A stretch of DNA of 21,938 nucleotides from the IMG/VR virus record IMGVR_UViG_3300047564_000504, positions 1 through 21,938 of that record, one strand, 5' to 3'. The notes beneath the pieces are model-generated. The model was not told where the DNA came from and did not search any database. It saw only the letters and a program-made list of their open reading frames with translations. Below, piece after piece: positions 9,832 through 21,938 of this stretch (position 1 is the stretch's first letter; each line of letters opens with the position of its first letter). Origin of the DNA: a virus. A program made the translations under genes and the position numbers.

Positions 9832-10004
9832 CGGTCGCATATCTCCTGTACGGTTTTGGTTTTTTTAGGTTTTTGGCATAGCTCGCTAATTGACTTTTCT
9901 TTTGACTTGCGCTGCATTTGGTAGACATTGAGGGGCGCTGGTGGTAGCAAGTTATAACCACCAACGCCCATCATTGACAAGCACAAAATAACGCGGCTAA
10001 TCAT
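9819..10004 (-). CDS. Small hypothetical protein with hydrophobic N-terminus, 61 aa
   Basis: ATG 10004 overlaps the end of the preceding leftward gene by 8 nt, and the stop overlaps the start of the 31-residue TM gene. The N-terminus (MISRVILCLSMMGVGGYNLL) is hydrophobic with a basic residue, like a signal peptide or short anchor, without a clear lipobox. The remainder is very basic (MQRKSKEKSISELCQKPKKT). No SD is visible; translation may be coupled. Function unknown; it sits at the distal end of the early leftward operon, where host-takeover genes often lie. Confidence 0.5.
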   Translation of the reverse strand: MISRVILCLSMMGVGGYNLLPPAPLNVYQMQRKSKEKSISELCQKPKKTKTVQEICDRWKK

Positions 10005-10623
10005 GTTCGTTTATTGAATAAAACCAATCATCTCCAGCCGTCCACTTGCGTGTGCCATCGACTGAATAAATGGTTTTTGCTGCTTGGAAATCAGGGAACT
10101 TGGCTTGATGGATTAGGCTTTGGTCATACCACAGGCATCGGTTGTTTGGTTGGGCGGCAAATTGACCAGATTCCAACTTGATGAAATTAAAAGATTTGTG
10201 TTCTTCAGCGGTCTCGGTAAAGCCGGTGTCAACGTCCATACCATCAGCGCAAAAATCCGCAGTGAACATATACGTCCCAAAGTGCCATTGCTTATCCTTG
10301 CCAAGAAACTTAACGCCAAGGTTACGCAAGCCAATCTTTTCGACAATGGTAAACCGATACCCCATGCAATCCCATAATTGCAAAATGTCCACAGGTAGGT
10401 CACTAGCGCCCTCTTTCCACACATAAGCGTGGATGGGTAGTTTGTCGTACAAAGCGCCGTATTCGGTCAATAGCGACTCAATCCTAAACACTTGCCCTCT
10501 GATGGCTTTAAGACTGACCCACACGCAAGGCACAAGCTCGCCATGCCCTTTGGTGTGGTTGTATAGAAACTCAGCCTTGATAAAGCACTGTAAAGGCGGT
10601 AATGATGCAACAAGATAGCTCAT
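9997..10623 (-). CDS. Conserved phage protein of unknown function, 208 aa
   Basis: The frame is open further upstream, but ATG 10623 overlaps the preceding stop (ATGA) and gives MSYLVASLPPLQCFIKAEFL. Recognisable blocks are NHTKGHGELVPCVWVSLKAI, LLTEYGALYDKLPIHAYVW and DLPVDILQLWDCMGYRFTI. I recall similar proteins (EFLYxHxxGHGE...LPVxxLQLWDC) in many phages as uncharacterised conserved genes. The composition, with many aromatic residues, suggests a compact mixed alpha/beta fold. It is co-transcribed with recombination genes, so an early function is likely, but I cannot name it. Confidence 0.7.
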   Translation of the reverse strand: MSYLVASLPPLQCFIKAEFLYNHTKGHGELVPCVWVSLKAIRGQVFRIESLLTEYGALYDKLPIHAYVWKEGASDLPVDILQLWDCMGYRFTIVEKIGLRNLGVKFLGKDKQWHFGTYMFTADFCADGMDVDTGFTETAEEHKSFNFIKLESGQFAAQPNNRCLWYDQSLIHQAKFPDFQAAKTIYSVDGTRKWTAGDDWFYSINEHD

Positions 10624-10922
10624 AGCAACTCCCGCTGTACAGGCACAAAACGCCATTCACGTTCTGCCCTGCCAGACTTTGACTTGGTGGTTTTGCCGGT
10701 CAACTCAACCATGCCAAGCCGAGCCATTTCAGGTAACCGCCTGGCTACCTGATTACCATCCAAGCCGGTCAGCTCTGCAATACCGTCTTTGCCCCGAGCG
10801 CCAAAGCGTTGGAGACAATCTACAATTTGGTCAAAGTGCTGACTTGCAAAGCTGGCTTGGTCGGCTGCGGCGTGGCTAGTCACTGGATCAAGTGACCGTG
10901 CGCGTTTAAAATTGAGGGTCAT
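10620..10922 (-). CDS. Winged-helix DNA-binding protein, 100 aa
   Basis: ATG 10922 is chosen over an upstream frame opening at 10988 because AGGAG lies exactly 6 nt before it. After a leader (MTLNFKRARSLDPVTSHAAA), residues 25-75 form a winged helix: FDQIVDCLQRFGARGKDGIA, then ELTGLDGNQVARRLPEMARL as the helix-turn-helix, and GMVELTGKTTKSKSGRAERE as the wing. This style, an HTH with the sequence Q-V-A-R-R-L-P-E-M, occurs in small phage regulators near replication and recombination genes. It probably binds DNA, either as an early regulator or as part of a replication complex. Confidence 0.7.
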   Translation of the reverse strand: MTLNFKRARSLDPVTSHAAADQASFASQHFDQIVDCLQRFGARGKDGIAELTGLDGNQVARRLPEMARLGMVELTGKTTKSKSGRAEREWRFVPVQRELL

Positions 10923-11133
10923 CTCTAGCTCCTGTATTTGTCTTTTCCTCCAAGTCATAACAGTTTGCCCATCCTGTCCATCCACCATCTGCCAAAGGTA
11001 TGGTGTCTAACTTAATTTTAAAATTTTCACCATCTTCAAACAAACTGCCAATGGTTTGGTAGCGTTTCTTTTCTTGACCGTCTTTGTTGGTGTATGTGCC
11101 GGTGATGACAACGATGTTTTTGATTTTCTTCAT
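10906..11133 (-). CDS. Small conserved phage protein, 75 aa
   Basis: ATG 11133 overlaps the exonuclease stop (ATGA). The protein starts MKKIKNIVVITGTYTNKDGQ and contains KKRYQTIGSLFEDGENFKIK and a Trp-rich GGWTGWANCYD. I recall similar short proteins beside ERF/RecT-type genes in phages. The alternating hydrophobic pattern suggests a small beta barrel or OB-like fold, so single-strand binding is conceivable, but nothing proves it. The last 17 nt overlap the next gene. No separate SSB gene was found in this operon, which makes this the most plausible candidate for that role. Confidence 0.6.
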   Translation of the reverse strand: MKKIKNIVVITGTYTNKDGQEKKRYQTIGSLFEDGENFKIKLDTIPLADGGWTGWANCYDLEEKTNTGARDDPQF

Positions 11134-11735
11134 GGGAGGCTTTCAAGTTGTTGGATTTTTAAATCTACGTCACCCAAGAACTGAATGACTGAATTCTCAA
11201 GCAAATTAACCATTTCGGGGTCATAGTTAATGCGCTTGATGAATAGCTGATGTCTTTCTGGAAGACGTGGATCGAATGAAACAAAGTCGCACCAAGGGCG
11301 GTCGGCAGAACACATTTGCCACATTATTTGCGTGATGTATTTGGCTGGCACAGTCTGACTTAACAGCGTGTCAATGTGGGTTGCGGTGTTTGGGCATTTA
11401 ATTTCAACCATACCCTCATTAGCAAGGCCATCAGGAGAAGCGCCAGACATGGGAATCCAAGGGTGGTCAATAAACCCCACCTCGGTCACTAGCAAGTCCA
11501 TCCTTGCCTCATAAGCCGCCCGAGCATAAGGCTCAGTGTCTGTACCCCACTGCATGGCTGAATTGCTGTAAGACTCGGCAGGCTTGCCGGTCATGCGCTC
11601 ACAAACAAGTTGGGCAAGGTAATTTTCGCGGCTGGCGCTTGGCCCTGTTTTGGTTTTGGCAATGATGTCTGCCACACGGCTTGCGGTGACCTTGCCGCAT
11701 CTGGCGGCAAACCATTCTTCTGTGCGCTGTTCCAT
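11130..11735 (-). CDS. YqaJ-like viral exonuclease (lambda exo family)
   Basis: The 201-residue protein starts at ATG 11735 (TAATG overlap with ERF). Its N-terminus EQRTEEWFAARCGKVTASRV is the typical YqaJ opening. The PD-(D/E)xK nuclease core is visible: Glu68 in WGTDTEPYA, Asp102 in SGASPDGL, Glu111 and Lys113 in MVEIKCP, and Gln136 in AKYITQIMWQM, matching lambda exonuclease Glu85, Asp119, Glu129, Lys131 and Gln157 in order. It should digest dsDNA 5'-3' to leave a 3' strand for the annealing protein encoded just upstream. The pair makes a complete recombination module. Confidence 0.92.
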   Translation of the reverse strand: MEQRTEEWFAARCGKVTASRVADIIAKTKTGPSASRENYLAQLVCERMTGKPAESYSNSAMQWGTDTEPYARAAYEARMDLLVTEVGFIDHPWIPMSGASPDGLANEGMVEIKCPNTATHIDTLLSQTVPAKYITQIMWQMCSADRPWCDFVSFDPRLPERHQLFIKRINYDPEMVNLLENSVIQFLGDVDLKIQQLESLP

Positions 11736-12301
11736 TATTTGCTCTCCAACATGGCTTTTTTAGCGTCCTTTTTGGCAATGACCTTAGATTGCCATGCTTG
11801 TTCGCCGTTTGTGGCCTTGTACGCCGCTTTATAGGCTTCCTGTAACTCTTTGAGGGTGATGACTTCATCCATTGCCGCCATTAGGTCAAGGATTTGGTTT
11901 TCATTAACTGTAGACTTGATTTCGGTCTTGCGGGCGGCTTGGTTGCCATCATCATCCTCGGGCGCAATACCGCAAGCAGCCATCAAGCTGTAGCGTCTGG
12001 CATAGGTCAGGGCAGAGCCGTAACCCTGTGGGTCTTGTTTGCTGGCTGGCACATGAAGAATGCCGCATTCCAACATTTCGCCTGATTCGTGGATAAACAT
12101 GGTTTCCACCATCACGCCGTTTTCGCAGTCATAGCATTTTTGGATCAGAGCTATGCCGTTGTCGTTTAAGCCTGTGATTACGGCTTCAACGCAAGCAGCC
12201 AGGTCAGCGTAGCGGCTTTTAAAGTGCGGATTAGTAGAGGATTTGAGGGCTGGGCCAAAGGCTTTTTGTGCTTTAACTAAAGCTGTTGCAATTTGTTTCA
12301 T
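11735..12301 (-). CDS. erf: ERF-family single-strand annealing protein
   Basis: The 188-residue protein starts at ATG 12301 with GGAGAC upstream. Family hallmarks are STNPHFKSRYADLAA (residues 22-36) and QGYGSALTYARRYSLMAACG (residues 92-111), followed by IAPEDDDGNQA. P22 Erf-type proteins anneal complementary single strands and help circularise phage DNA. The C-terminal third (ITLKELQEAYKAAYKATNGE) is a helical extension. It lies directly before the YqaJ exonuclease, its usual partner, and TAATG overlap implies coupled translation. Confidence 0.92.
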   Translation of the reverse strand: MKQIATALVKAQKAFGPALKSSTNPHFKSRYADLAACVEAVITGLNDNGIALIQKCYDCENGVMVETMFIHESGEMLECGILHVPASKQDPQGYGSALTYARRYSLMAACGIAPEDDDGNQAARKTEIKSTVNENQILDLMAAMDEVITLKELQEAYKAAYKATNGEQAWQSKVIAKKDAKKAMLESK

Positions 12302-12310
12302 GTTGTCTCC

Positions 12311-12556
12311 TTAGTGAAATTTTGGGCCACAGGTCACATCCACCAAAGTCTCGGCGGTGTAACCATTGATTTTGCGTTTACCGTAAATCGTGATGGCTCT
12401 GAGGCCATTCTTTTCGCACTGCTTGATTGCGTCTATCACCTCATTTCTGCCCATTGGCTGGATTTGCTTGTCCATGATCAGCTCTTGCTCGGTAAGTTTT
12501 GTTTCGGTAAAGTGGCTGCAACCGACCAGCGCCAGCAATAAAAATGCGTATCTCAT
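12311..12556 (-). CDS. Small lipoprotein, 81 aa
   Basis: ATG 12556 has GGAG 6 nt upstream; a TTG further up is less likely. The N-terminus MRYAFLLLALVGC carries an LVGC lipobox, so Cys13 is the likely lipidation site. The mature part contains SHFTETKLTEQELI, an Arg/Glu-rich helix (NEVIDAIKQCEKNGLRAITI), and a beta stretch (GYTAETLVDVTCG) with two cysteines. The start codon overlaps the stop of the TM gene before it (TAATG). As an early-expressed surface lipoprotein it could block superinfecting phages, but this is only suggested by class and position. Confidence 0.7.
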   Translation of the reverse strand: MRYAFLLLALVGCSHFTETKLTEQELIMDKQIQPMGRNEVIDAIKQCEKNGLRAITIYGKRKINGYTAETLVDVTCGPKFH

Positions 12557-12672
12557 TACGGTCTCCAAACAAAAAGGTCAAGCAAAACCACCACAATGGC
12601 GGCAATCGATACGATCCAAAGGGCGATTTGAGACCAATCGCGGGGTTTTTTGTAGTGCTCAATATCAAACAT
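12556..12672 (-). CDS. Very small TM protein, 38 aa
   Basis: ATG 12672 opens a 38-residue frame: a hydrophilic head (MFDIEHYKKPRDWSQ) followed by a single TM helix (IALWIVSIAAIVVVLLDLFV) and WRP. It overlaps the previous gene by the 8-nt sequence ATGTTTGA and the next gene by TAATG, the same junction types used throughout this operon. With a lipoprotein immediately after it, the two may act together at the envelope. No SD is evident, so coupling with the upstream gene is likely. Confidence 0.6.
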   Translation of the reverse strand: MFDIEHYKKPRDWSQIALWIVSIAAIVVVLLDLFVWRP

Positions 12673-12916
12673 AGTCGTGGCTTTCATAGTGGCTGTGGGG
12701 AGCAAATTCGCGTTCTAATTCGGCAATAACTGCCGGCGCAAGCACGTTGTAAAGGTCATGTTGACCAAGGTAGCAATGCCACAAATTGCCGCTGACAGGG
12801 CAAAAATAGCAGTCAACGGTTGAGGCTAAGTCGGCGTATTCAATTGCCAAATGCTCAAGGCCGGTATCGACCATGATGCGAGCATCGTTGTACGGTAGCG
12901 TTTCGATGTGTTTCAT
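12665..12916 (-). CDS. Hypothetical early protein, 83 aa
   Basis: ATG 12916 with AAGGA 6 nt upstream is favoured over an in-frame opening at 12994. The product begins MKHIETLPYNDARIMVDTGL and continues LEHLAIEYADLAST, with CYFCPVSGNLWHCYLGQHD in the middle and a His-rich end (FAPHSHYESHDYV). Two Cys (36, 39) and several His could bind metal. Not recognised; it is soluble by composition and belongs to the leftward early operon. Confidence 0.55.
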   Translation of the reverse strand: MKHIETLPYNDARIMVDTGLEHLAIEYADLASTVDCYFCPVSGNLWHCYLGQHDLYNVLAPAVIAELEREFAPHSHYESHDYV

Positions 12917-12950
12917 GTTTGTTCCTTTAGGGCCTTGCGCCCCATTTGGT

Positions 12951-13121
12951 TTATTTGTTTTTAAATGGGGAATTGGCTTTGAAGTTGTAGCCAAGTTTTT
13001 TTAATTCTTGCGTAGTGTCAGCAAGACTCATGGCGTTTACTTGTTGGTTTGTATAACCAAGATCACGCAATGCCTTGCGTTGGGCAATTGCTAAAGTAAC
13101 CATCCAATTTGCGTTCATCAT
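12951..13121 (-). CDS. Small early protein, 56 aa, first gene of the leftward operon
   Basis: ATG 13121 (a second ATG follows directly) has AAGGA 6 nt upstream. The protein is MMNANWMVTLAIAQRKALRD, then LGYTNQQVNAMSLADTTQEL and a lysine-rich end. The pattern LRDLGYTNQQVNAMSLADTT resembles a short helix-turn-helix or UBA-like helical pair. It is the first gene after the divergent control region, so it should be expressed immediately on infection. Function unknown. Confidence 0.55.
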   Translation of the reverse strand: MMNANWMVTLAIAQRKALRDLGYTNQQVNAMSLADTTQELKKLGYNFKANSPFKNK

Positions 13122-13166
13122 GTTGTTTCCTTAAAGACCCTGTGCGTTGTGCTGGGGAATGAATGT

Positions 13167-13208
13167 ATTGTTAAGCAAACTAAACAATCATGCAAGCACT
13201 TTGTTAAG
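13167..13208 (-). promoter_or_regulatory. Putative leftward early promoter with operator dyad
   Basis: On the minus strand TTGCAT (13195-13190) and AACAAT (13172-13167) are 17 nt apart, a weak sigma70-like pair (3/6 and 4/6 matches). ATTGTT (13167-13172) and AACAAT (13183-13188) form a perfect 6-bp dyad with a 10-nt spacer that covers the -10 and most of the spacer. TTGTTAAG occurs at 13168-13175 and again at 13201-13208, 33 bp apart (about three helical turns). This is where a repressor of the leftward operon would bind. Promoter strength is unproven. Confidence 0.4.
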
Positions 13209-13231
13209 TACCTGACTGTTTTGTGGGGATT

Positions 13232-13259
13232 TTGTTGTTTATTTGTCTTAACATAGAAT
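13232..13259 (+). promoter_or_regulatory. Putative rightward promoter for the Cro-like gene
   Basis: TTGTTG (13232-13237) and TAGAAT (13254-13259) are 16 nt apart; the -10 matches 5/6 and the -35 3/6. CTTAACA (13247-13253), the reverse complement of the TGTTAAG repeat, abuts the -10 and could be an operator. Transcription would begin near 13266, the A of the Cro-like ATG, and no SD is seen before that ATG, so the mRNA might be leaderless. Confidence 0.35.
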
Positions 13260-13265
13260 AAGCCA

Positions 13266-13421
13266 ATGACAAAACAGCAATTAACCCAGTTGGCAGGCTC
13301 ACAGGCTGAGCTTGCGCGACTATTGAACATCAGCCGGTCGGCGGTATGCCAGTGGGTGGTTGTTCCTGAGCTGCAATTGCGAAGATTGAAAGATTTGCGA
13401 CCACAGTGGTTTGTGGTGTAA
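13266..13421 (+). CDS. Cro-like HTH repressor, 51 aa
   Basis: The gene starts at ATG 13266 and is shorter than usual Cro (about 60-75 residues). After MTKQQLTQLAG comes a clear helix-turn-helix: SQAELARLLNISRSAVCQWV (residues 12-31), then VVPELQLRRLKDLRPQWF. The pattern Q-A-E-L-A-R-L-L-x-I-S-x-x-A-V-x-Q-W is that of Cro/YdaS-type regulators, where residues after the turn read the operator. It is the first rightward gene, next to repeats in the control region, so it should bind there. No opposing CI-type repressor gene is present in the window. Confidence 0.75.
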   Translation: MTKQQLTQLAGSQAELARLLNISRSAVCQWVVVPELQLRRLKDLRPQWFVV

Positions 13422-13523
13422 CATTGTTTGAAACACGGCTAGGTGGGGGGTAGCTATCCCACCGAAAAGAGAACAGACCCCTCCTGCCGAGGTTTCTTTT
13501 TCAGGGTCTTGTAAGGGTCTGAA
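13422..13523 (+). promoter_or_regulatory. Structured leader before the replication gene
   Basis: No gene lies here. GGTGGG (13442-13447) can pair with CCCACC (13458-13463) around a 10-nt loop. CAGACCC (13474-13480) can pair either with GGGTCT at 13504-13509 or with GGGTCTG at 13515-13521; the second choice hides the AAGGG (13513-13517) that serves as SD for ATG 13524. A short CCTC/GAGG stem (13480-13492) followed by TTTCTTTTT might act as a weak attenuator. All pairings are read by eye. Confidence 0.35.
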
Positions 13524-14285
13524 ATGCACTACTACCAATTCAATATTGGTGACTATCTTAGTCACACAAAGCATCTTGATTTAATGGAAGATTTGGCTTA
13601 TCGCCGACTTCTTGATCTTTACTATTTACATGAACGACCGTTGAACAGCGGTATAGCGTCTGTTGCACGGCAGATTGGTATGCGTGACCATGAGACAGAG
13701 GTCAAATCTGTGCTTGAGGAGTTTTTTAACCTATCTGATGACGGATGGATAAACCAACGAGCAGACAAAGAAATTAAGCATTTTCACAGCAAAATTGATC
13801 AGGCATCAAGGGCTGGTAAGGCATCTGCTGAACGGAGGATGAGCGCACGTTCAACGGACGTTCAACTAACCAATAACCAAGAACCAATAACCAATAACCA
13901 ATTAAAACCCTCTATATGTCCACCTGACGGTGAACTTGACTTAGCAAAAAAATTACCTGGCTGTGACCACAAGGCAGTCATTGAGCTATATCACCAGAAT
14001 CTGCCCACAATGCGGCGGGTGGAGGTTTGGAACGAAACCAGAGCTGGTTACCTACGGCAACGATGGCGGGAAGTGGCGGCAGAGCTAGCGCAAGCGCAAG
14101 ACATCACCGCATCTGATGTGCTTGACTGGTGGGGTGAGTTTTTCCAATCTGTTGGCAAATCCAGATTTTTGACCGGCAGGGTTAACAGCAAGGACGGTCG
14201 GGCATTTGTTGCCGACTTGGAATGGATACTCAAACCAAGCAATTTTGCAAAAATCGTGGAGGGGAAATATCATGGCAATAACTAA
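13524..14285 (+). CDS. DUF1376-containing phage replication protein
   Basis: The 253-residue protein starts at ATG 13524, 6 nt after AAGGG. Residues 1-80 are a DUF1376 domain: YYQFNIGDYLSHTKHLDLME, then EDLAYRRLLDLYYLHERPL. A Gln/Asn linker (residues ~115-126, TNNQEPITNNQ) follows, encoded by a heptamer array. The C-terminal half (VEVWNETRAGYLRQRWREVA and FFQSVGKSRFLTGR) is a replication-protein-type domain also seen after DUF1376. Such proteins take the place of lambda O or a helicase loader at the origin. It is the first large gene rightward of Cro, in the expected position for origin binding. No helicase gene is visible nearby. Confidence 0.8.
   Translation: MHYYQFNIGDYLSHTKHLDLMEDLAYRRLLDLYYLHERPLNSGIASVARQIGMRDHETEVKSVLEEFFNLSDDGWINQRADKEIKHFHSKIDQASRAGKASAERRMSARSTDVQLTNNQEPITNNQLKPSICPPDGELDLAKKLPGCDHKAVIELYHQNLPTMRRVEVWNETRAGYLRQRWREVAAELAQAQDITASDVLDWWGEFFQSVGKSRFLTGRVNSKDGRAFVADLEWILKPSNFAKIVEGKYHGNN
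13868..13902 (+). repeat. Five tandem 7-bp repeats (AACCAAT), candidate iterons
   Basis: Positions 13868-13902 consist of AACCAAT, AACCAAG, AACCAAT, AACCAAT, AACCAAT, with a single base change in copy 2, and are followed by an A/T-rich stretch to about 13918. Because 7 is not a multiple of 3, the repeats are read in rotating frames and still keep the gene open. Iterons inside the replication-initiator gene are the arrangement of lambda ori in O. This could be the replication origin, or a slippage-prone simple repeat in a tolerant linker. Confidence 0.55.
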
Positions 14286-14472
14286 GTTTACTCAGCAAAA
14301 AGACGATTCTTTTGATGACACATTGCGTTTAATGTGTTCTGTCCAAGGTTGTCCAAACCGTTGGTCAGTTAACTCTGATGGCGAAAAACCCAAGTGTTCA
14401 AAGCACCAATGGAATAAAACTGAGAAAAAGACACCCGCCAAAAGCTGGCACGATGTCGGGGAAGAATTCTAA
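14272..14472 (+). CDS. Small zinc-binding-like protein, 66 aa
   Basis: ATG 14272 lies within the end of the replication gene (14-nt overlap) after GGAGGGG. The product begins MAITKFTQQKDDSFDDTLRL and has Cys22, Cys27, Cys42 and His45 in the form C-x4-C-x14-C-x2-H (MCSVQGCPNRW, then PKCSKHQW), which suggests a zinc ribbon. The C-terminus is KTPAKSWHDVGEEF. It probably binds nucleic acid or serves as a replication accessory; the specific role is unknown. Tightly coupled to the DUF1376 gene. Confidence 0.6.
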   Translation: MAITKFTQQKDDSFDDTLRLMCSVQGCPNRWSVNSDGEKPKCSKHQWNKTEKKTPAKSWHDVGEEF

Positions 14473-14473
14473 A

Positions 14474-14683
14474 ATGAACTATGAGCACAGAAAAATTGCC
14501 AATTCAATCCTTAGCCGACTTAAAGACGGCGAACAATTTAGCCAATCAGTCATCCGAACAGCGCTTAGAGATACAGGAGACCTTACGGACAATGGAAGCG
14601 AGGGATTGGATCAGGCGTTACAAAACAAAAATCAAGGCGGTTGGCAAGAGAGAAGCTTACGCTTGGTGGCAAAGAACAATTGA
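14474..14683 (+). CDS. Overlapping small ORF, 69 aa (possible overprinted gene)
   Basis: ATG 14474 lies 1 nt after the previous stop and 9 nt after GGGGAAG (14458-14464), a better SD distance than for the competing start at 14481. The product begins MNYEHRKIANSILSRLKDGE and includes FSQSVIRTALRDTGDLTDNG and NQGGWQERSLRLVAKNN, which looks like a well-formed helical protein. It shares almost all its length with the 14481-14762 frame. Either one is a shadow or both are expressed; see the finding. Confidence 0.4.
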   Translation: MNYEHRKIANSILSRLKDGEQFSQSVIRTALRDTGDLTDNGSEGLDQALQNKNQGGWQERSLRLVAKNN

Positions 14684-14762
14684 CGATATTGAAAAACGCC
14701 GAGGTAAAGGCGCGGCTGATGACCTACGCAGGAGAATGAACAATGAGGGCGGCAAAAATTGA
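14481..14762 (+). CDS. Conserved phage hypothetical protein, 93 aa
   Basis: The frame starts at ATG 14481 and ends by overlapping the VRR-NUC gene. Its second half, MEARDWIRRYKTKIKAVGKR then EAYAWWQRTIDDIEKRRG and AADDLRRRMN, is strongly protein-like and matches small proteins I recall near phage replication genes. An internal ATG at 14592 with AGGAGA 11 nt upstream could be the true start, giving 56 residues and a smaller overlap with the 14474 frame. The role is not known; the basic, helical end suggests nucleic-acid or protein binding. Confidence 0.6.
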   Translation: MSTEKLPIQSLADLKTANNLANQSSEQRLEIQETLRTMEARDWIRRYKTKIKAVGKREAYAWWQRTIDDIEKRRGKGAADDLRRRMNNEGGKN

Positions 14763-15030
14763 TGCAAATCAAGAGGCGGTGGTCACGGCGCTACGAACGG
14801 CTGGCGCTACGGTGCAGTCTTTGGCTGGTGTTGGTAAGGGTGTACCTGATTTGTTGGTTGGCTATAAAGGCCAAACCCTGCTTATGGAGATTAAGGACGG
14901 CTTTAAAGCGCCGTCTGCGCGACTTTTGACTGAAGACCAGCTACGGTGGCATCATAACTGGAAAGGCGGCGCATTAGCGGTCGTAGACAGCCCTGATGCG
15001 GCTTTACGCATGATTAGGGTGATTAAGTGA
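14743..15030 (+). CDS. VRR-NUC-domain nuclease, 95 aa
   Basis: ATG 14743 follows AGGAG at about 9 nt. The protein is a minimal VRR-NUC fold: an N-terminal helix (ANQEAVVTALRTAGATVQSL), GKGVPDLLVGYKGQTLLMEI (Asp36, Glu49) and Lys51 in MEIKDG, which form the PD-(D/E)xK site, then LLTEDQLRWHHNW and a Gly-Gly-Ala-Leu strand. Stand-alone phage VRR-NUC proteins are thought to cut branched DNA such as Holliday junctions; the exact substrate here is inference. It sits between a small unknown gene and NinB, within the replication/recombination cluster. Confidence 0.88.
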   Translation: MRAAKIDANQEAVVTALRTAGATVQSLAGVGKGVPDLLVGYKGQTLLMEIKDGFKAPSARLLTEDQLRWHHNWKGGALAVVDSPDAALRMIRVIK

Positions 15031-15305
15031 GAAGCCTTGAGCAAAACCGGCTAATGTGGGCAAACCTTGAGGACATTGCCCAGCAAGTGGTCTGGTACGG
15101 TCAAAAGCTACCCAAGGAAGAATGGAAAGATGTTTTGACGGCTGCGCTGAAAAAGCAAAAGATCGTGCCAGGCATTGAGGGCGGGTTTGTGGTCATTGGC
15201 GCAAGGACAAGCAAAATGAGCGTGGCAGAGATGACCGAACTGATTGAGCTGTCATCTATGTTTGGCGCACAGCAAGGTGTTAAGTTTCGAGCATTAGAGG
15301 AATAA
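15027..15305 (+). CDS. ninB: NinB-like recombination protein, 92 aa
   Basis: The start is GTG 15027 overlapping the previous stop (GTGA), giving the family opening RSLEQNRLMWANLEDIAQQV. The rest also matches NinB: KLPKEEWKDVLTAALKKQ, IVPGIEGGFVVIGARTSKMS and the closing LIELSSMFGAQQGVKFRALE. NinB (lambda Orf) is a recombination mediator that binds single-stranded DNA and SSB. At 92 residues it is shorter than lambda Orf (146) but comparable with many phage NinB-domain proteins. It should work with ERF and the nucleases encoded nearby. Confidence 0.88.
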   Translation: MRSLEQNRLMWANLEDIAQQVVWYGQKLPKEEWKDVLTAALKKQKIVPGIEGGFVVIGARTSKMSVAEMTELIELSSMFGAQQGVKFRALEE

Positions 15306-15331
15306 AAAGGGGATCGGCACAAGGCCGACCC
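15304..15331 (-). terminator. Reverse-facing intrinsic terminator candidate
   Basis: Read on the minus strand, CCC/GGG and GCCGA/TCGGC pair (15324-15331 with 15310-15318, one A bulge at 15313) around a 5-nt loop, then a C and five T (15308-15304). In the plus direction no T-run follows. It is located in the 76-nt gap before DUF1364. No minus-strand gene is visible to its right, so it would stop antisense transcripts. Stem length is 8 bp. Confidence 0.45.
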
Positions 15332-15381
15332 AAAATAATCACCGCAAGCATTTAAAACGGCAACCAAAAAGAAGTATATCC

Positions 15382-15735
15382 ATGTTCCAAAAACATCAAT
15401 ATGTAAGGTCAAAAAAGTTACTCAAACTGGTGGCGGGGCTTGACTGCCAAGCCTGTGGGTCGGGCAACATGGTGCAAGCGGCGCACACAAATTGGGGTGG
15501 CGGCAAAGGTCGGGGCGTTAAGGCTGACGATAATCTGGTGGCTGCACTGTGCCTCAAATGCCATTACGAGATTGACCAAGGCAAGGACATGAGCAAAGAA
15601 GAACGGCAAGAAATGTGGGAACAAGCACACATTGCCACCGTAAAAAAACTGCACATTCAAGGACTTTGGCCTGTTGACGTGCCGATTCCAGCGTTTACAA
15701 TTGAGCCGCAGTTGTCTCCTTTGCAGGGGCATTGA
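15382..15735 (+). CDS. DUF1364 / HNH-like nuclease, 117 aa
   Basis: ATG 15382 is the first in the frame. The Cys-His pattern of DUF1364 is complete: GLDCQACGSGNMVQAAHTNW (Cys22, Cys25, His35), KGRGVKADDNLVAALCLKCH (Cys57, Cys60, His61) and EIDQGKDMSKEERQEMWEQA. The spacing resembles zinc-supported HNH endonucleases. Such genes are typical of phage nin-type regions. Its last 60 nt also contain a promoter-like sequence and the start of a terminator. Enzymatic activity is inferred from the family, not tested by anything in the sequence. Confidence 0.8.
   Translation: MFQKHQYVRSKKLLKLVAGLDCQACGSGNMVQAAHTNWGGGKGRGVKADDNLVAALCLKCHYEIDQGKDMSKEERQEMWEQAHIATVKKLHIQGLWPVDVPIPAFTIEPQLSPLQGH
15674..15701 (+). 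promoter_or_regulatory. Near-consensus sigma70-type promoter inside the DUF1364 gene
   Basis: TTGACG (15674-15679; 5/6) and TACAAT (15696-15701; 5/6) are 16 nt apart. Transcription would begin near 15708. A strong terminator starts only about 15 nt further (15723), so unaided transcripts would be about 40 nt. Downstream lie the ferritin-like, glycosyltransferase, hydroxylase, methyltransferase, terminase and portal genes. It could be the late promoter, needing antitermination. It lies in coding sequence, so chance is possible. Confidence 0.5.
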
Positions 15736-15749
15736 CCCCTGCTTTTTTT
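15723..15749 (+). terminator. Strong intrinsic terminator
   Basis: GCAGGGG (15723-15729) pairs perfectly with CCCCTGC (15736-15742) around a 6-nt loop that contains the TGA stop of DUF1364, and seven T follow directly. This is a textbook rho-independent terminator. It ends the rightward early transcript and stands only 9 nt before the ATG region of the next gene. Confidence 0.9.
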
Positions 15750-15758
15750 AGGATAACC

Positions 15759-16115
15759 ATGAAAAAAGACGTAGCCGACTTTATTTCCACGCTGTTTCAC
15801 AGCTCCACGGTGACGCATTTCATGCACCTGAGCACCGATTCATACGCCACACACAAGGCTTTGGGCAAATATTACCCAGCCATTGTCGATTTGGCTGATA
15901 GTTATGCAGAGGCGTATTCGGGCTGTTACGAAAAGATCAAGGACTTCCCAGAGAACTTTCACAACGCCAAAGACCCGCAAAAGTACCTTGCTAGCATCAA
16001 AACCTACATAGAAAAAAACCGTGATGCTTTGCCAGACGACAGCCATTTGCAAAACATTGTGGATGAAATTGCCGCACTGGTTGACAGCACAATCTATCTA
16101 TTGTCATTTAAATGA
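15759..16115 (+). CDS. Ferritin-like (Dps-like) small protein, 118 aa
   Basis: ATG 15759 with AGGA upstream is preferred to a TTG at 15732, which lies inside the terminator. The protein is helical: DVADFISTLFHSSTVTHFMH, then ATHKALGKYYPAIVDLADSY, AEAYSGCYEKIKDFPENF, and a last helix IVDEIAALVDSTIYLLSFK. This resembles a Dps/ferritin-like four-helix protein found in phages (DUF5856-type); His residues at 14 and 19-22 and Asp/Glu in helix 2 could bind metal. Whether it stores iron or shields DNA is unproven. It heads a small cargo cluster. Confidence 0.6.
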   Translation: MKKDVADFISTLFHSSTVTHFMHLSTDSYATHKALGKYYPAIVDLADSYAEAYSGCYEKIKDFPENFHNAKDPQKYLASIKTYIEKNRDALPDDSHLQNIVDEIAALVDSTIYLLSFK

Positions 16116-16792
16116 TTAGGATATTTGCTGGCTATGACCCTCGGGAGGCTGTTGGCTACCATGTGTTTTGCCAGAGCCTGATTGAGCGCACCAGTGAGCC
16201 GGTCGCCATAACACCGTTATACGGTACACAGCGGGACGGCACAAACGCATTCACTTATCAGCGGTTTTTAGTACCCTACTTCACCAAGTTCACCGGCAAG
16301 GCAATATTTTTGGACGCAAGCGATATGCTGATGCTGTCTAACATTGACGACCTTGCTAAGCTGTTTGACCCGACCAAAGCGGTACAAGTAGTCAAGCACA
16401 ATTACCTGACCAAGCACCCAAAGAAGTACATTGGCACATTAATGGAAGCGGCAAACAGGGATTACCCTAGAAAGAACTGGTCAAGCCTGATTTTGTGGAA
16501 TTGCGACCACCTAAGAAACCGAGTGCTGACACCTGACTTTGTGGCTGACCACAGTGGATCAGACTTGCACCGTTTCGGTTGGTTGCCCGATTCACTTATC
16601 GGTGAGTTACCGAAAGAATGGAACGTACTGGTGGGCGAGCAAGACAACAAGAACGCCAGAATTGCTCACTATACGCTTGGCATACCTGAGTTTGAGCATT
16701 ACCAAGATTGCGACTTCAGCAAGCAATGGCATAACACCAAGAGCCGAATGCTTAACGGCTTGATCAAAATGAAAGAAGTGGCTAATGTTTGA
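16112..16792 (+). CDS. Glycosyltransferase, GT8-like, 226 aa
   Basis: ATG 16112 overlaps the previous stop (ATGA). The start IRIFAGYDPREAVGYHVFCQ is typical of phage GT-A glycosyltransferases. FTYQRFLVPYF and the DxD-like metal site GKAIFLDASDMLML (Asp68/Asp71) follow, then NWSSLILWNCDHLRN, DSLIGELPKEWNVLVGEQ and AHYTLGIPEF (His186, a likely third metal ligand, as in GT8). It should transfer a sugar from a nucleotide donor. Target unknown: host lipopolysaccharide, a virion protein or DNA are all possible. It overlaps the hydroxylase gene by 8 nt, so the two are co-translated. Confidence 0.8.
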   Translation: MIRIFAGYDPREAVGYHVFCQSLIERTSEPVAITPLYGTQRDGTNAFTYQRFLVPYFTKFTGKAIFLDASDMLMLSNIDDLAKLFDPTKAVQVVKHNYLTKHPKKYIGTLMEAANRDYPRKNWSSLILWNCDHLRNRVLTPDFVADHSGSDLHRFGWLPDSLIGELPKEWNVLVGEQDNKNARIAHYTLGIPEFEHYQDCDFSKQWHNTKSRMLNGLIKMKEVANV

Positions 16793-17522
16793 CCTTTTGC
16801 AATGGTCAAGGGGCATCGAATTAAAATTACACAATGCAGTTTTTGATAGGTTTCGCAAGCATTCTTTAATTGGCGATCAACCATTTTTTAGCAAACAAAC
16901 GTTAAGACCCGCCAAAGAATTAGAGCTGGCGCACCCACAGATCAAAGCTGAAGTGCTAAAGATTCTTGAACGATATGAGGAACTGACACCGTTTCAGGTA
17001 ATGTCGCCAGATCAAGAAAGCTTGTCTAATGATGACCGATGGAAATTCTTTTTTTTAAAGTGCGCCAACATTAAGTTTAAGAAAAACGCCAAAATGATGC
17101 CGCAAACAATGGCAGTCATTGACAAATACCCTGAGATTGTTAGTGCATACCTGTCAATTCTTGCGCCGCACAAATCTTTGCCGCCTCATGCTGGGCCGTG
17201 GCCTGGCGTACTAAGGGCGCATTTGGGCGTGTTAATCCCAACAGGCAAACAAAAGCCGCACATTATTGTGGATGGGTTTAGGTATGAATGGAGAGAGGGC
17301 GAAGTGGTTTACTTTGACGACACCTACAAACATGAGGCGCACAACCCAACAGATGAGATTAGGGTGGTGCTGTTTATGGACGTGCTTAGGCCAATGTCAT
17401 TCCCCTATAACTGGGTAAATCGGTTTATACTTTCAATAGCAATCTTGTTCCCATACATTTGGATACCTTATTTCAGACACAAAAAATGGGAAAAACAATT
17501 CCATAAGGGTAAAAATGCCTGA
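16785..17522 (+). CDS. Aspartyl/asparaginyl beta-hydroxylase family dioxygenase, 245 aa
   Basis: ATG 16785 overlaps the glycosyltransferase stop (ATGTTTGA). Residues ~130-202 hold the AspH-type double-stranded beta-helix: LPPHAGPWPGVLRAHLGVLI, DTYKHEAHNPTDEIRVVLFM, then DVLRP. Against mammalian AspH (His679, Arg688, His690, His725, Arg735), the residues His135, Arg144, His146, His183 and Arg193 appear with exactly the same spacing, so iron and 2-oxoglutarate binding are well supported. The C-terminus has a hydrophobic stretch (FILSIAILFPYIWIPYF), perhaps a membrane anchor. Bacterial relatives (LpxO) hydroxylate lipid A, so a lipid or surface target is plausible. Confidence 0.88.
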   Translation: MFDLLQWSRGIELKLHNAVFDRFRKHSLIGDQPFFSKQTLRPAKELELAHPQIKAEVLKILERYEELTPFQVMSPDQESLSNDDRWKFFFLKCANIKFKKNAKMMPQTMAVIDKYPEIVSAYLSILAPHKSLPPHAGPWPGVLRAHLGVLIPTGKQKPHIIVDGFRYEWREGEVVYFDDTYKHEAHNPTDEIRVVLFMDVLRPMSFPYNWVNRFILSIAILFPYIWIPYFRHKKWEKQFHKGKNA

Positions 17523-17895
17523 TTACAGTTTGTTAGCCCAAGCCCTGACCCGCCAATCTGGTCTTGCGCCTTACGGCATGAGAAATCTGGAGGAGGGGCA
17601 AACCATATCTGAGGGTACAGCAAAAGGCAAAGGCTATTTTGGTGAGATGCCAATGAATCAAGGTGGCGCAATGACCGAAATGTCAAGCGCTTACAACCAA
17701 GACGGCAACATAGTTTCAAACCCATTGCTTGTGCCGACCCTGACTAAACAAGAGATTGATCTGCTTGGAATGGGGCTAGAGCCAACGCCAGAGATATACA
17801 AAAAAGCACAGGACTATGCCCAGCAACGTATAGGCGCAGGCCAAAGCCCATTTGCAAGCTCGCAAGAATTGCGTTATCCGATGCCAACCAAATGA
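17515..17895 (+). CDS. Uncharacterised phage protein, 126 aa
   Basis: ATG 17515 has AAGGG 5 nt upstream and overlaps the hydroxylase by 8 nt. The sequence includes LAPYGMRNLEEGQTISEGTA, KGKGYFGEMPMNQGGAMTEM and NPLLVPTLTKQEIDLLGMG, ending in FASSQELRYPMPTK. I recall proteins with MTEMSSA...PLLVPTLT...EI...SPFA in many uncultured phages, usually near structural or packaging genes; their role is unknown to me. Composition suggests a flexible soluble protein, perhaps virion-associated. Confidence 0.6.
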   Translation: MPDYSLLAQALTRQSGLAPYGMRNLEEGQTISEGTAKGKGYFGEMPMNQGGAMTEMSSAYNQDGNIVSNPLLVPTLTKQEIDLLGMGLEPTPEIYKKAQDYAQQRIGAGQSPFASSQELRYPMPTK

Positions 17896-19022
17896 AGATT
17901 ACCCAGAAAAAGGTTGACAGCCTAATACCTTACATCAACAACAGCCGCACCCACAGCGATGAGCAAGTGGCACAAATAGCGGCAAGCATTAAAGAGTTTG
18001 GCTGGACTAACCCAATATTGGTGGATGGCGACAACAGCATCATTGCCGGCCACGGCAGGCTAATGGCGGCAAGGAAGCTGGGCTACAAGGAAGTACCCAC
18101 CATTGAGCTGTCAGACTTAACAGAAACCCAAAAGAAAGCCTACATCATTGCCGACAACCGTTTGGCGCTTAACGCTGGTTGGGACAACAAGCTGCTAACC
18201 ATTGAGCTTAACGACTTGCTGGCAGACGGCTTTGCGCTGGAATTGCTGGGCTTTGACCCTAAAGAGCTAGATGCATTACTTGAGCCAGAAGTAGTCGAGG
18301 GCTTAACAGACGAGGACGCTGTTCCTGACGTGCCTGATGAGCCAACAACCAAACGCGGGGACATATATCAACTTGGTTATCACCGATTGATGTGTGGTGA
18401 TTCAACATTTATAGATGATGTTGAAAAGTTAATGCAGGGTACATATCCTGATCTGATACACACAGACCCACCGTATGGAATGAATGCTGTTAGCAAATCA
18501 TCTGTATTAAAAAAGAATTACAAAATTGATATTCTTGGTGATGATTCGCCCGATGTGGCAAAAGACGCATTTAATTTGATTTATGGGCTATATCCAGAAG
18601 CCAAACATATTTGGTGGGGGGCAAACTATTATTGTTCCGCATTGCCAGATAGCGAATGCTGGCTTGTTTGGGACAAGGACAATGGTCAATCCGATCAAAC
18701 CGATTGCGAGTTAGCATGGGCTAATTTTCGAAGTGTTGTGCGCCAATTTACCAAATCATCAGAAAAAAAGAATCGCGTACACCCAACACAAAAGCCCGTG
18801 GCATTAATGGAATGGATTATTCGCCGTTTCAAATTATCATCTGACACTATTGCTGATTATTTTGGCGGGTCTGGAAGTACATTGATTGCTGCTGAAAAGC
18901 ATGGGATCAAAGCATTTGTGATGGAATTTGATCCAAAATTTTGCGATGTGATTGTTAAGCGGTGGGAAGACTTTACAGGTAAGAAAGCCGTATTGTTGTT
19001 AGAATCCACCGTAACAGCTTAA
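17892..19022 (+). CDS. ParB-like domain fused to DNA methyltransferase, 376 aa
   Basis: ATG 17892 overlaps the previous stop (ATGA). Residues 1-~95 are a ParB/sulfiredoxin-like domain: QIAASIKEFGWTNPILVDGD, NSIIAGHGRLMAARKLGY, and KKAYIIADNRLALN. Residues ~155-370 are an amino-methyltransferase: DPPY at 192-195 (motif IV), HPTQKPVALMEWI, and FGGSGST at 324-330 (motif I), so motif IV comes before I as in beta-class enzymes. DPPY favours N6-adenine. It may protect phage DNA from restriction. The N-terminal half is visibly G+C-richer (lines at 18001 and 18121: 35/60 and 29/60) than the methyltransferase half (18361 and 18481: 20/60 and 16/60), which suggests a spliced-in domain. Confidence 0.88.
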   Translation: MKITQKKVDSLIPYINNSRTHSDEQVAQIAASIKEFGWTNPILVDGDNSIIAGHGRLMAARKLGYKEVPTIELSDLTETQKKAYIIADNRLALNAGWDNKLLTIELNDLLADGFALELLGFDPKELDALLEPEVVEGLTDEDAVPDVPDEPTTKRGDIYQLGYHRLMCGDSTFIDDVEKLMQGTYPDLIHTDPPYGMNAVSKSSVLKKNYKIDILGDDSPDVAKDAFNLIYGLYPEAKHIWWGANYYCSALPDSECWLVWDKDNGQSDQTDCELAWANFRSVVRQFTKSSEKKNRVHPTQKPVALMEWIIRRFKLSSDTIADYFGGSGSTLIAAEKHGIKAFVMEFDPKFCDVIVKRWEDFTGKKAVLLLESTVTA

Positions 19023-19042
19023 CGAGTTCCCCTATATAAAAG

Positions 19043-19381
19043 ATGCCAGTAATCCCACAAAAGGCTCATAAGCCAACCGATGAGACCCGCAGGATGGTTG
19101 AAAGCACCAGCGGATTAGGCTTGCCGCATGAGCAAATAGCCATTCTTGTGGGCATAGACGACAAGACTTTACGCAAGTATTACCGCACCGAGTTGGACTT
19201 GGGTAAGGCCAAAGCCAATGGGCAGATAGCCAAAACCTTGTTTGGTAAAGCCACAGGGGGCGACACTACCGCATTGATCTGGTGGACAAAGACGCAGATG
19301 CGCTGGGCTGAAACCGTCAAGCAAGAAATTACAGGCGCAGAAGGTCAAGACTTGGTGATCAAGTGGGCAGCAGGGAAATAA
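19043..19381 (+). CDS. terS: Terminase small subunit-like protein, 112 aa
   Basis: ATG 19043 is 20 nt after the methyltransferase stop, without a clear SD. Residues 12-50 form a helix-turn-helix: ETRRMVESTSGLGLPHEQIA, ILVGIDDKTLRKYYRTELDL. The rest (AKANGQIAKTLFGKATGGDT, TALIWWTKTQMRWAE) is typical of small terminases that recognise the packaging site. It overlaps the large terminase gene by 19 nt, the usual neighbour. The identification comes mainly from this motif and position. Confidence 0.8.
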   Translation: MPVIPQKAHKPTDETRRMVESTSGLGLPHEQIAILVGIDDKTLRKYYRTELDLGKAKANGQIAKTLFGKATGGDTTALIWWTKTQMRWAETVKQEITGAEGQDLVIKWAAGK

Positions 19382-20682
19382 TACTGCCGTATAGCCCTCG
19401 GGAAGCATTTATGCCTTTCCACAATAGAACAGAACGCTGGTCGTGTTTGGTTGCCCACCGTAGGGCTGGCAAGACCGTGGCGGCAATCAATGACCTAATC
19501 AAACGAGCCATCACCGAGGGTCATAGAGGGGCGCAATACGCTTATATAGCCCCATTTCGCAGCCAGGCTAAACGAGTGGCGTGGGACTATATTAAGCATT
19601 ACGCCGCGCCAATTACTAAAACCACCAATGAATCAGATTTGGCGGTAGAGCTGCTTAACGGCGCAAAGATCATGCTGTTTGGCTCAGACAATGCAGATGC
19701 CATGCGAGGTTTAGGGTTTAACGGCGTATACCTTGACGAATACGGTGACTTTAAGCCCAGCGTTTGGGGTAACGTCATTCGCCCCACATTGTCAGACCGG
19801 CTTGGCTGGGCGGTCTTTGGTGGTACGCCAAAGGGCAAGAATCAGTTTCACGATATTTACAAGGTCAGCCAAAACGTGCCTGATTGGTTTTTGTTAAGGC
19901 TACCAGCAAGCGTGTCCCAAATACTGCCAGACTCAGAATTGCAAGCGGCTCGGTCTCAGTTAAGCCAAGACCAGTACGACCAAGAGTATGAATGCAGCTT
20001 TGATGCGGCTATCCTTGGTGCGTTTTTTGGTCATGAAATGCGCTTGGCTGATGATGAGGGTAGGATTTGTGAGCTGCCGTTTGAGCCTGAGTATTCGGTT
20101 TACACGGCATGGGACTTAGGTTACCGAGACGACACTGCCATTTGGTTTTATCAGGTAGTGCGGGGTGAGATCAGGGTAATGGACTACTACGCTGTCAGCG
20201 GCGCAAGCATTGAAGAAATCTGCGATGCGGTCATAGCCAAGGGTTACCGATACACCCGCCACCACCTACCGCATGATGCTAGAGCCAAAACTTTGGCCTC
20301 GGGCGGTAAGTCGATTGTTGAGCAATTGGCGGCACATCTGGGTGGCATGAGCAAGCTGGCAATAGTGCCTGAGATTGGCATACAAGACGGTATCCAAGCG
20401 GTGCGAATGATTCTGCCCATCTGTTACTTTGATTCCAGATGCGATGAGGGCTTGGAAGCGTTAAGGCAATATCAGCGGGAATATGATGAGGACAAGAAAA
20501 CTTTTCGTCAAACTCCACGCCATGACTGGTGCTCACACCCCGCAGATGCGTTTAGAATGCTTGCAGTAGCCTATAGACAAGAAGCAAAAGATCAGACACC
20601 GCCCAAGGGCAAGACCCTGCAAACCATCACATTGGATGAGCTGTGGGACTTTGAAATGCAACATAAAGAGGAACGCATATGA
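19363..20682 (+). CDS. terL: Terminase large subunit
   Basis: GTG 19363 is needed because the family N-terminus (ILPYSPREAFMPFH) lies before the first ATG; GGTG is about 5 nt upstream. The ATPase has Walker A AHRRAGKT (31-38), Walker B GVYLDEYGDF (Asp125/Glu126), and a coupling segment FGGTPKGKNQFHD. The nuclease has Asp251 in TAWDLGYRDDTAIWF, Asp275 in VMDYYAVSG and Asp305 in HLPHDARAKT, with HDWCSHPADAFR near the end. At 439 residues it is complete for this family. It powers DNA packaging and cuts the concatemer. Confidence 0.95.
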   Translation: MGSREIILPYSPREAFMPFHNRTERWSCLVAHRRAGKTVAAINDLIKRAITEGHRGAQYAYIAPFRSQAKRVAWDYIKHYAAPITKTTNESDLAVELLNGAKIMLFGSDNADAMRGLGFNGVYLDEYGDFKPSVWGNVIRPTLSDRLGWAVFGGTPKGKNQFHDIYKVSQNVPDWFLLRLPASVSQILPDSELQAARSQLSQDQYDQEYECSFDAAILGAFFGHEMRLADDEGRICELPFEPEYSVYTAWDLGYRDDTAIWFYQVVRGEIRVMDYYAVSGASIEEICDAVIAKGYRYTRHHLPHDARAKTLASGGKSIVEQLAAHLGGMSKLAIVPEIGIQDGIQAVRMILPICYFDSRCDEGLEALRQYQREYDEDKKTFRQTPRHDWCSHPADAFRMLAVAYRQEAKDQTPPKGKTLQTITLDELWDFEMQHKEERI

Positions 20683-20954
20683 GCCAGCCAGTAGCAGAAG
20701 TCGGTGGATATAAAAACATCACCAGCACAGGCGCAGTCAGCACAGGCCCTTGCCAGTTGATTGGTTTTTACGTTAACAGCACAAGTTCAGGCACTTTGGT
20801 GCTTAAAGATGGCGGCTCTAGCGGTACTGTAATGAGCGGCACGATCACGCCTGCGGTTGGGTTTCACCGATTTCCTGCCAACGTGGGGTCAAGCCTACAC
20901 GCAACCATTGGCAGCACAATAGATGTGACGTTCTTCTTCTCTAGCGGAAACTGA
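20679..20954 (+). CDS. Small structural protein between terminase and portal, 91 aa
   Basis: ATG 20679 overlaps the terminase stop (ATGA). The protein is Gly/Ser/Thr-rich with alternating hydrophobic residues: SQPVAEVGGYKNITSTGAVS, LIGFYVNSTSSGTLVLKDGG, and TIGSTIDVTFFFSSGN. This is a beta-sandwich-like composition found in small proteins placed here in related phages, possibly a head decoration or a virion component. No catalytic residues. Not named with certainty. Confidence 0.65.
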   Translation: MSQPVAEVGGYKNITSTGAVSTGPCQLIGFYVNSTSSGTLVLKDGGSSGTVMSGTITPAVGFHRFPANVGSSLHATIGSTIDVTFFFSSGN

Positions 20955-20956
20955 TC

Positions 20957-21938
20957 ATGTACGAAGAAAACGGCGCATATGAGGGCGAAGACCCAGGCCC
21001 GTACTGGCATGACCAGATTGAGACCGCCATCAAGATATTTGACAAATGGGAGAAGCGCGGCTTAAAGGTTGTCAAGCGGTATCGGGATGAGCGTGATGCC
21101 ATTGAGATGCCAAGGATGAAGTTCAACATCCTGTGGTCAAACATTCAAGTGCTGTTCCCTGCCCTTTACGGTCGCCAAGCCAAGCCCGAAGTGTCACGCC
21201 GATACATGGATCAAGACCCTGTGGGTCGCCTTGCATCCACAATGCTTGAGCGTGTCATGGAGTACGAAACCACGCAATTCGGTGACTTTGACGCTGCCAT
21301 GTCTGGTGCGGTGCAAGACAGACTGTTGCCTGGTCGCGGTACGGCATGGATTCGATACGAGCCTGTGATCGTCAATGACCGACCTGATGATGACGGCGTA
21401 TTAGATGAGACCGAAGAATCACAGGTTTACAACACCGTGGAAGACCCGACAGAGCGCATTGATGCGGCTCACAGCCCTATTGATTACGTTTACTGGTCAG
21501 ACTTTTTGCATTCACCGGCCCGAACATGGGATGAGGTGTGGTGGGTGGCTCGCGCTGTCTACATGACCAAGGAGGAGGGTGTAGAGCGCTTTGGTGACGT
21601 ATTTAACAACGTCAGCCTGACCAGCTCAAACACCGACATGGACGGCAAGAATCCATTGACCGCCAAGATGACCTACGACAAAAAGGCGATGGTCTATGAG
21701 ATTTGGAACAAGCGCACGGCTAAGGTTTGCTGGATTGCCAAAGGTTATCCACAAGCGCTAGATGAGCGTGATGACCCGCTAGAGCTAGAAGAATTCTTCC
21801 CATGCCCTAAACCGTTGATGGCAACCACCACCACCGGCACAATGATTCCTGTACCTGATTACTGTGAGTACGAAGATCAGGCGCAAGAGTTGGATAATTT
21901 GACGCAACGCATTTACCTGTTGACCAAGGCTTGTAAAG
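20957..21938 (+). CDS. Portal protein (P22-like), 3' end outside window
   Basis: ATG 20957 follows GCGGAAA and runs open to the right edge, giving 327 residues without a stop. The N-terminus PYWHDQIETAIKIFDKWEKR is followed by MKFNILWSNIQVLFPALYGR, a portal hallmark, then RQAKPEVSRRYMDQDPVGRL, and TKEEGVERFGDVFNN. The C-terminal region in view (YDKKAMVYEIWNKRTAKVCW, CEYEDQAQELDNLTQRIYLL) also matches P22-type portals. The portal forms the dodecameric ring at the packaging vertex and joins the terminase encoded just before it. Confidence 0.9.
   Translation, partial: MYEENGAYEGEDPGPYWHDQIETAIKIFDKWEKRGLKVVKRYRDERDAIEMPRMKFNILWSNIQVLFPALYGRQAKPEVSRRYMDQDPVGRLASTMLERVMEYETTQFGDFDAAMSGAVQDRLLPGRGTAWIRYEPVIVNDRPDDDGVLDETEESQVYNTVEDPTERIDAAHSPIDYVYWSDFLHSPARTWDEVWWVARAVYMTKEEGVERFGDVFNNVSLTSSNTDMDGKNPLTAKMTYDKKAMVYEIWNKRTAKVCWIAKGYPQALDERDDPLELEEFFPCPKPLMATTTTGTMIPVPDYCEYEDQAQELDNLTQRIYLLTKACK

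Follow-up and report, generated by a model that had tools for sequence, protein, structure and literature searches.

The window, a 21,938-nt stretch of viral DNA, contains a predicted promoter–terminator unit that lies directly before the late genes (Table 1). The first-pass annotation had placed the promoter inside the end of a DUF1364 gene; the location inside a 3′ gene end held, but the gene itself was found to encode an HNH-type nuclease, its only Pfam matches being DUF968 and YbcO, both sub-threshold. The stop codon of this gene falls inside the terminator loop. On the other side of the hairpin, an AGGA ribosome-binding site (15750–15753) abuts the end of the T run, and the DUF5856 gene begins nine bases past this run, which leaves no space for a promoter, so that transcription of DUF5856 must pass the terminator. 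The genes that follow are closely packed, most of their reading frames overlapping, and the open reading frame list and a promoter scan gave no better promoter for them, in agreement with the earlier annotation; late transcripts must therefore traverse the terminator.

Two further sequences were observed upstream of the unit. Between the NinB and HNH genes, the minus strand carries a terminator-like stem and T run (15311–15331), which heads the list of the terminator scan. In the gap between Cro and the replication gene, which is the place of lambda nutR/tR1, the plus strand (13432–13506) carries a sub-threshold match to the int-alpA RNA (RF02996, 33.3 bits, E 2e-4) that may represent a control RNA of the early operon. 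The same RNA was detected above threshold in the relatives L003, L231, L238, and L125 and sub-threshold in L277, lying before the replication gene where checked.

Table 1. Position of the predicted control unit and of neighbouring features in the window.
Feature	Position	Strand	Basis or remark
Small open reading frame 'TGD'	14474–14683	+	Overlaps the gene at 14481–14762 in another frame; speculative trans-factor candidate
HNH-type nuclease gene	15382–15735	+	PHROG 131, E 1e-25; 3′ end holds promoter, decamer, and half of terminator
−35 hexamer TTGACG	15674–15679	+	Read in sequence; promoter scan; codons 98–99 (GTT GAC)
−10 hexamer TACAAT	15696–15701	+	Read in sequence; promoter scan; TTT ACA in 76/76 distinct coding sequences
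Predicted transcription start	15708	+	First base of decamer
Conserved transcribed decamer GCAGTTGTCT	15708–15717	+	Conservation in relatives; GCAGTTGYCT across the wider group
Predicted terminated RNA, ~42 nt	15708–15749	+	Predicted from promoter and terminator; fold
Terminator stem-loop GCAGGGG CATTGA CCCCTGC	15723–15742	+	Scan; fold; varied stem arms in relatives
Terminator T run TTTTTTT	15743–15749	+	Read in sequence
First late gene, DUF5856/PHROG 858	15759–16115	+	Pfam/PHROG match
Late operon	15759–21938	+	DUF5856, glycosyltransferase-like, Asp/Asn hydroxylase-like, ParB/methylase, terminase small and large subunits, onward

The two hexamers stand 16 nt apart and, as read in the first pass, each agrees with the consensus at 5/6 positions; the combined 10/12 made this the best promoter-like match within 10000–21938 and the only one there at that level. 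The terminator, likewise confirmed by direct reading, has a perfect stem of seven pairs (six G–C and one A–T), a six-base loop, and seven T residues. For the RNA reaching from the predicted start to the end of the T run, the terminator hairpin was the sole predicted fold (−14.4 kcal/mol, with 2 of 200 shuffles equally good), the 5′ stretch was predicted to be unpaired, and Rfam gave no match. Consensus scans did not rise above the chance level of shuffled sequence, with 9 promoter-like sites versus 14.0 expected and 16 terminator-like sites versus 14.5. The evidence that the unit is real is therefore its conservation in relatives; its activity as promoter and terminator is predicted from sequence.

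A search of viral contigs with the HNH protein returned 80 loci; the comparison covered 76 distinct full-length coding sequences. Mean synonymous diversity over codons 1–96 was 0.37. Diversity fell to zero at V98 and D99, which correspond to the −35, and at A/T104, F105, and T106, before or in the −10; it rose to 0.67 at the spacer codon P101 and, past the −10, to 0.49 at I107 and 0.42 at E108; the wobble base at 15702, immediately past the −10, varied freely. The synonymous divergence that the first-pass annotation had named as refuting its proposal was thus absent at D99, A/T104, F105, and T106. From 15708 onward, across the first ten bases of the predicted transcript, GCAGTTGTCT, synonymous diversity was again approximately zero, the third base of codon 109 being an invariant G despite a change of amino acid and being followed by CAG TTG TCT. 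The onset of this conserved block is exactly the start-site position expected for a TACAAT −10, and coincides with the start near 15708 that had been predicted in the first pass. In several relatives the HNH protein stops earlier, at a TAG codon, and GCAGTTGTCT was nevertheless retained. The reduction in synonymous variation gave MWU p values of 1e-4 for the promoter and 5e-3 for the leader, which are guides only because the compared HNH sequences are related. Comparison of the relatives confirmed that the promoter–terminator unit is under strong selection.

These data bear on a passive explanation, in which the terminator closes the early operon and is leaky enough for the late genes, the promoter-like sequence arising from the conserved peptide xDVPxP. 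The −35 does partly overlap this peptide, the consensus scans stood at chance level, and the −35 is poor in several groups. However, codon choice is frozen at the −35 and −10 and free between them, the decamer is retained outside coding sequence, and a promoter still occupies this position in groups whose upstream gene is another one; such a passive boundary is considered very improbable.

The wider phage group was searched using two viral-contig patterns, one consisting of TTGAC, TANAAT, and GCAGTTGNC (at least 119 matches, unrelated chance ones included), and the other of GCAGTTGYCT followed by a G-rich/C-rich hairpin and a T run (at least 119 matches); both patterns required the decamer, so that its constancy among their matches is partly by construction. 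All the viral matches listed for the second pattern, except L282, were in phages sharing an early region (Cro, a replication protein, NinB or its replacement, and the HNH protein) with late genes behind it. The same pattern had three matches across 257 billion bases of cellular genome sequence, none in a related phage context, and a search of cellular genome contigs with the HNH protein found no prophage copies. The unit-bearing phages form a large group, uncultured and mostly from freshwater, and the unit was present as one copy per genome in 15/15 near-complete relatives.

Divergent relatives retained promoter, decamer, and hairpin while their stem sequences differed, and the 27 different arm pairs found among relatives demonstrate covariation of the terminator stem. 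A pairing between the 5′ end of the RNA and the ribosome-binding site was discarded, since by inspection relatives do not retain it. Across 18 divergent representatives, upstream promoters scored 9.1 versus 6.4 for random upstream windows, and a −10 of 5/6 or better was located 5–9 nt from the decamer in half of them (9/18) versus 0.7% of controls. In L231 and MW202462 (L227) the decamer lies outside coding sequence, as does most of it in L238. The upstream gene is another HNH protein in L281/L303 and NinB in L324/L344; in both pairs the promoter sequence differs and the decamer and terminator are kept.

The distance between −10 and decamer ranged from 6 to 34 nt between groups, reaching about 600 nt of tRNA-like sequence in L299, and in some groups the promoter was weak or lay 14–34 nt from the decamer, whereas decamer and stem stayed 1–9 nt apart. 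The decamer therefore belongs to the terminator and not to the start site. A role as start-site element only was rejected, as in L279, L285, L227, L339, and L299 the decamer lies 13 to ~600 nt from the −10 yet adjoins the terminator. Among 122 distinct HNH relatives, chosen by their HNH protein regardless of the presence of the unit, 86 had both decamer and terminator, 25 had neither, and 11 had one only. The tRNA-like arrays, which are absent from the window, occur in L299 (400–1010, minus strand) and behind the HNH gene in L009, L034, L039, L067, L390, L394, and others, inserted either before or behind the terminator. They share a recurrent frame, ACACGCATGGGGATTG...CAGTCCCCAGCCGTGTTGGT, with D-arm and T-arm-like parts in L299; for most other array-bearing loci ARAGORN predicted no tRNA, and its single prediction in L299 lies elsewhere in that locus.

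A conserved promoter with a predicted product of ~42 nt before the late genes most plausibly points to a conditional terminator opening for those genes, and we lean towards the reading that the unit is a late switch of the pR′–tR′ kind, acting by conditional termination. In such a switch, a constitutive sigma-70 promoter within the 3′ end of the HNH gene would initiate RNA at ~15708, and most polymerases would halt ~42 nt on, at the strong terminator before the first late gene. A putative factor would then modify the polymerase via the transcribed decamer GCAGTTGYCT, either as DNA or as nascent RNA, and the modified polymerase would read through to express the late operon with its terminase, portal, and structural genes. 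The overall logic would be that of lambda pR′–tR′ and Q, with a different recognition element and a putative factor.

The lambda-like antitermination switch proposed in the first-pass annotation is favored, as a conditional terminator, by the promoter–terminator pair and by the closeness of the first late gene to the end of the T run, but the analogy is one of logic only. Like the lambdoid systems (lambda, 21, and 82), the unit lies at the end of a nin-like region before the late operon, and it combines a constitutive-looking promoter with an intrinsic terminator, a short predicted terminated RNA, and late genes that would need read-through. In contrast to them, no Q-family gene was found in the phages (PF06530 and PF03589 had matches in 0/22 related records, with control genomes positive), in keeping with the first-pass reading, and the stem begins at only about +16. 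Q systems depend on a site located between −35 and −10 plus a −10-like sequence shortly after the start (PMC6606751), whereas the element found across the unit-bearing groups is transcribed and lies beside the terminator. The −35/−10 spacer is partly conserved in the close group of the window and not across groups, and by inspection no −10-like pause hexamer (xAxxxT) is conserved from the predicted start to +10 within the GCAGTTGTCT block.

The AlpA system of Pseudomonas aeruginosa also pairs a promoter (alpB, PA0807) with a nearby intrinsic terminator that is bypassed by a dedicated factor, as is proposed for the unit. AlpA requires both a site in the −35/−10 spacer and a −10-like sequence at −1 to +5 (PMC9371919), and neither an AlpA-type site nor such a −10-like sequence is conserved across the unit-bearing groups. 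The terminators of its targets begin 26 bp (PA0807) and 54 nt (alpB) from the start (PMC7969949), so that a short promoter–terminator distance as such has precedent in PA0807. In the Caulobacter gene transfer agent, antitermination by GafZ and GafY, with a factor unlike Q by sequence, activates a phage-like structural operon (PMC11150451). This resembles the switching on of phage-type structural genes proposed here, but their terminator lies behind the first gene and their putative site lies between −35 and −10.

Several relatives depart from the arrangement seen in the window. In L401 and its kin, decamer and terminator close the early operon and the unit faces ~3 kb of convergent genes, which intervene before terminase. 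In one group the HNH gene is followed directly by DUF5856, with TACAAT but without TTGAC, decamer, or terminator; together with L401, this group indicates that the switch is dispensable or replaceable. In L364/L369 the terminator position behind the HNH gene is retained and CAGTCTGMGGTTGGGG takes the place of the decamer, perhaps as a different specificity of this module. All these exceptions fit exchangeable control modules, and the L401 case fits a small RNA too. The L401 and terminator-less groups count against a late switch, as do the missing Q family and the weak or distant promoters of some groups, and constitutive leakage through the terminator would equally yield late expression.

The main rival to the late switch is a small-RNA gene, in which the ~42-nt RNA would act in trans via its unpaired 5′ end, GCAGUUGYCU, the terminator would form its 3′ end, and the late genes would be expressed via leakage or otherwise. 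An unpaired conserved 5′ stretch followed by a terminator is typical small-RNA anatomy, the L401 group has no late gene directly behind the unit, and a precedent exists in StxS of Stx phage, a small RNA that arises when a phage late transcript terminates early (PMC12197685), as is predicted here, although StxS is 74 nt long and comes from an enteric phage. Against this, these phages show no enrichment of the decamer's reverse complement (2 matches in 0.9 Mb), the rRNA of E. coli, which may not be the host, lacks it even when one mismatch is allowed, and it is left unexplained why the first late gene follows the T run so closely. A small-RNA gene is rated as rather unlikely. It could also be that the terminated product of an antitermination switch doubles as a regulatory RNA, as is known for Stx phages (StxS, PMC12197685). 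This is consistent with all the conservation data, but each half would have to be conjectured, and the combination is judged quite unlikely.

The late switch would call for a trans-acting factor. The early genes near the unit gave no Q match in Pfam or PHROGs, and the AlpA family was absent from their Pfam/PHROG matches in a general family search. A speculative candidate, put forward by co-occurrence only, is the product of the small 'TGD' open reading frame, which was found in 58 of the 62 unit-bearing loci having ≥4.5 kb upstream and is as common as Cro; L282 and L351, two of the four loci without it, are probable chance matches. This frame and the gene overlapping it were both stop-free in 46 relatives. 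Its N-terminus is conserved (A..ILDR..DG......IT.AL..TGD), searches of the Pfam/PHROG type gave no family match, and its AlphaFold model was poor (mean pLDDT 66). Two neighboring proteins were also considered. The HNH protein is unlikely to be the factor, as its place beside the unit is taken by NinB in L324/L344 and by a different HNH protein in L281/L303, and a DUF7696-like protein was rejected, being missing from groups L227 and L303.

We tentatively propose that the unit may represent a new class of late antitermination in many uncultured phages, in which a putative factor would read the terminator-side decamer GCAGTTGYCT in place of a promoter-embedded Q site; that the decamer would be read in this class as nascent RNA or non-template DNA is a similarly doubtful suggestion. 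The unit provides a concrete candidate late-control element for mostly freshwater, uncultured phages without a recognized late regulator. Should the decamer be a recognition site, antitermination would be loaded behind the promoter, unlike in the Q, AlpA, and GafZ systems, and the factor involved would either define a new protein family or come from the host.
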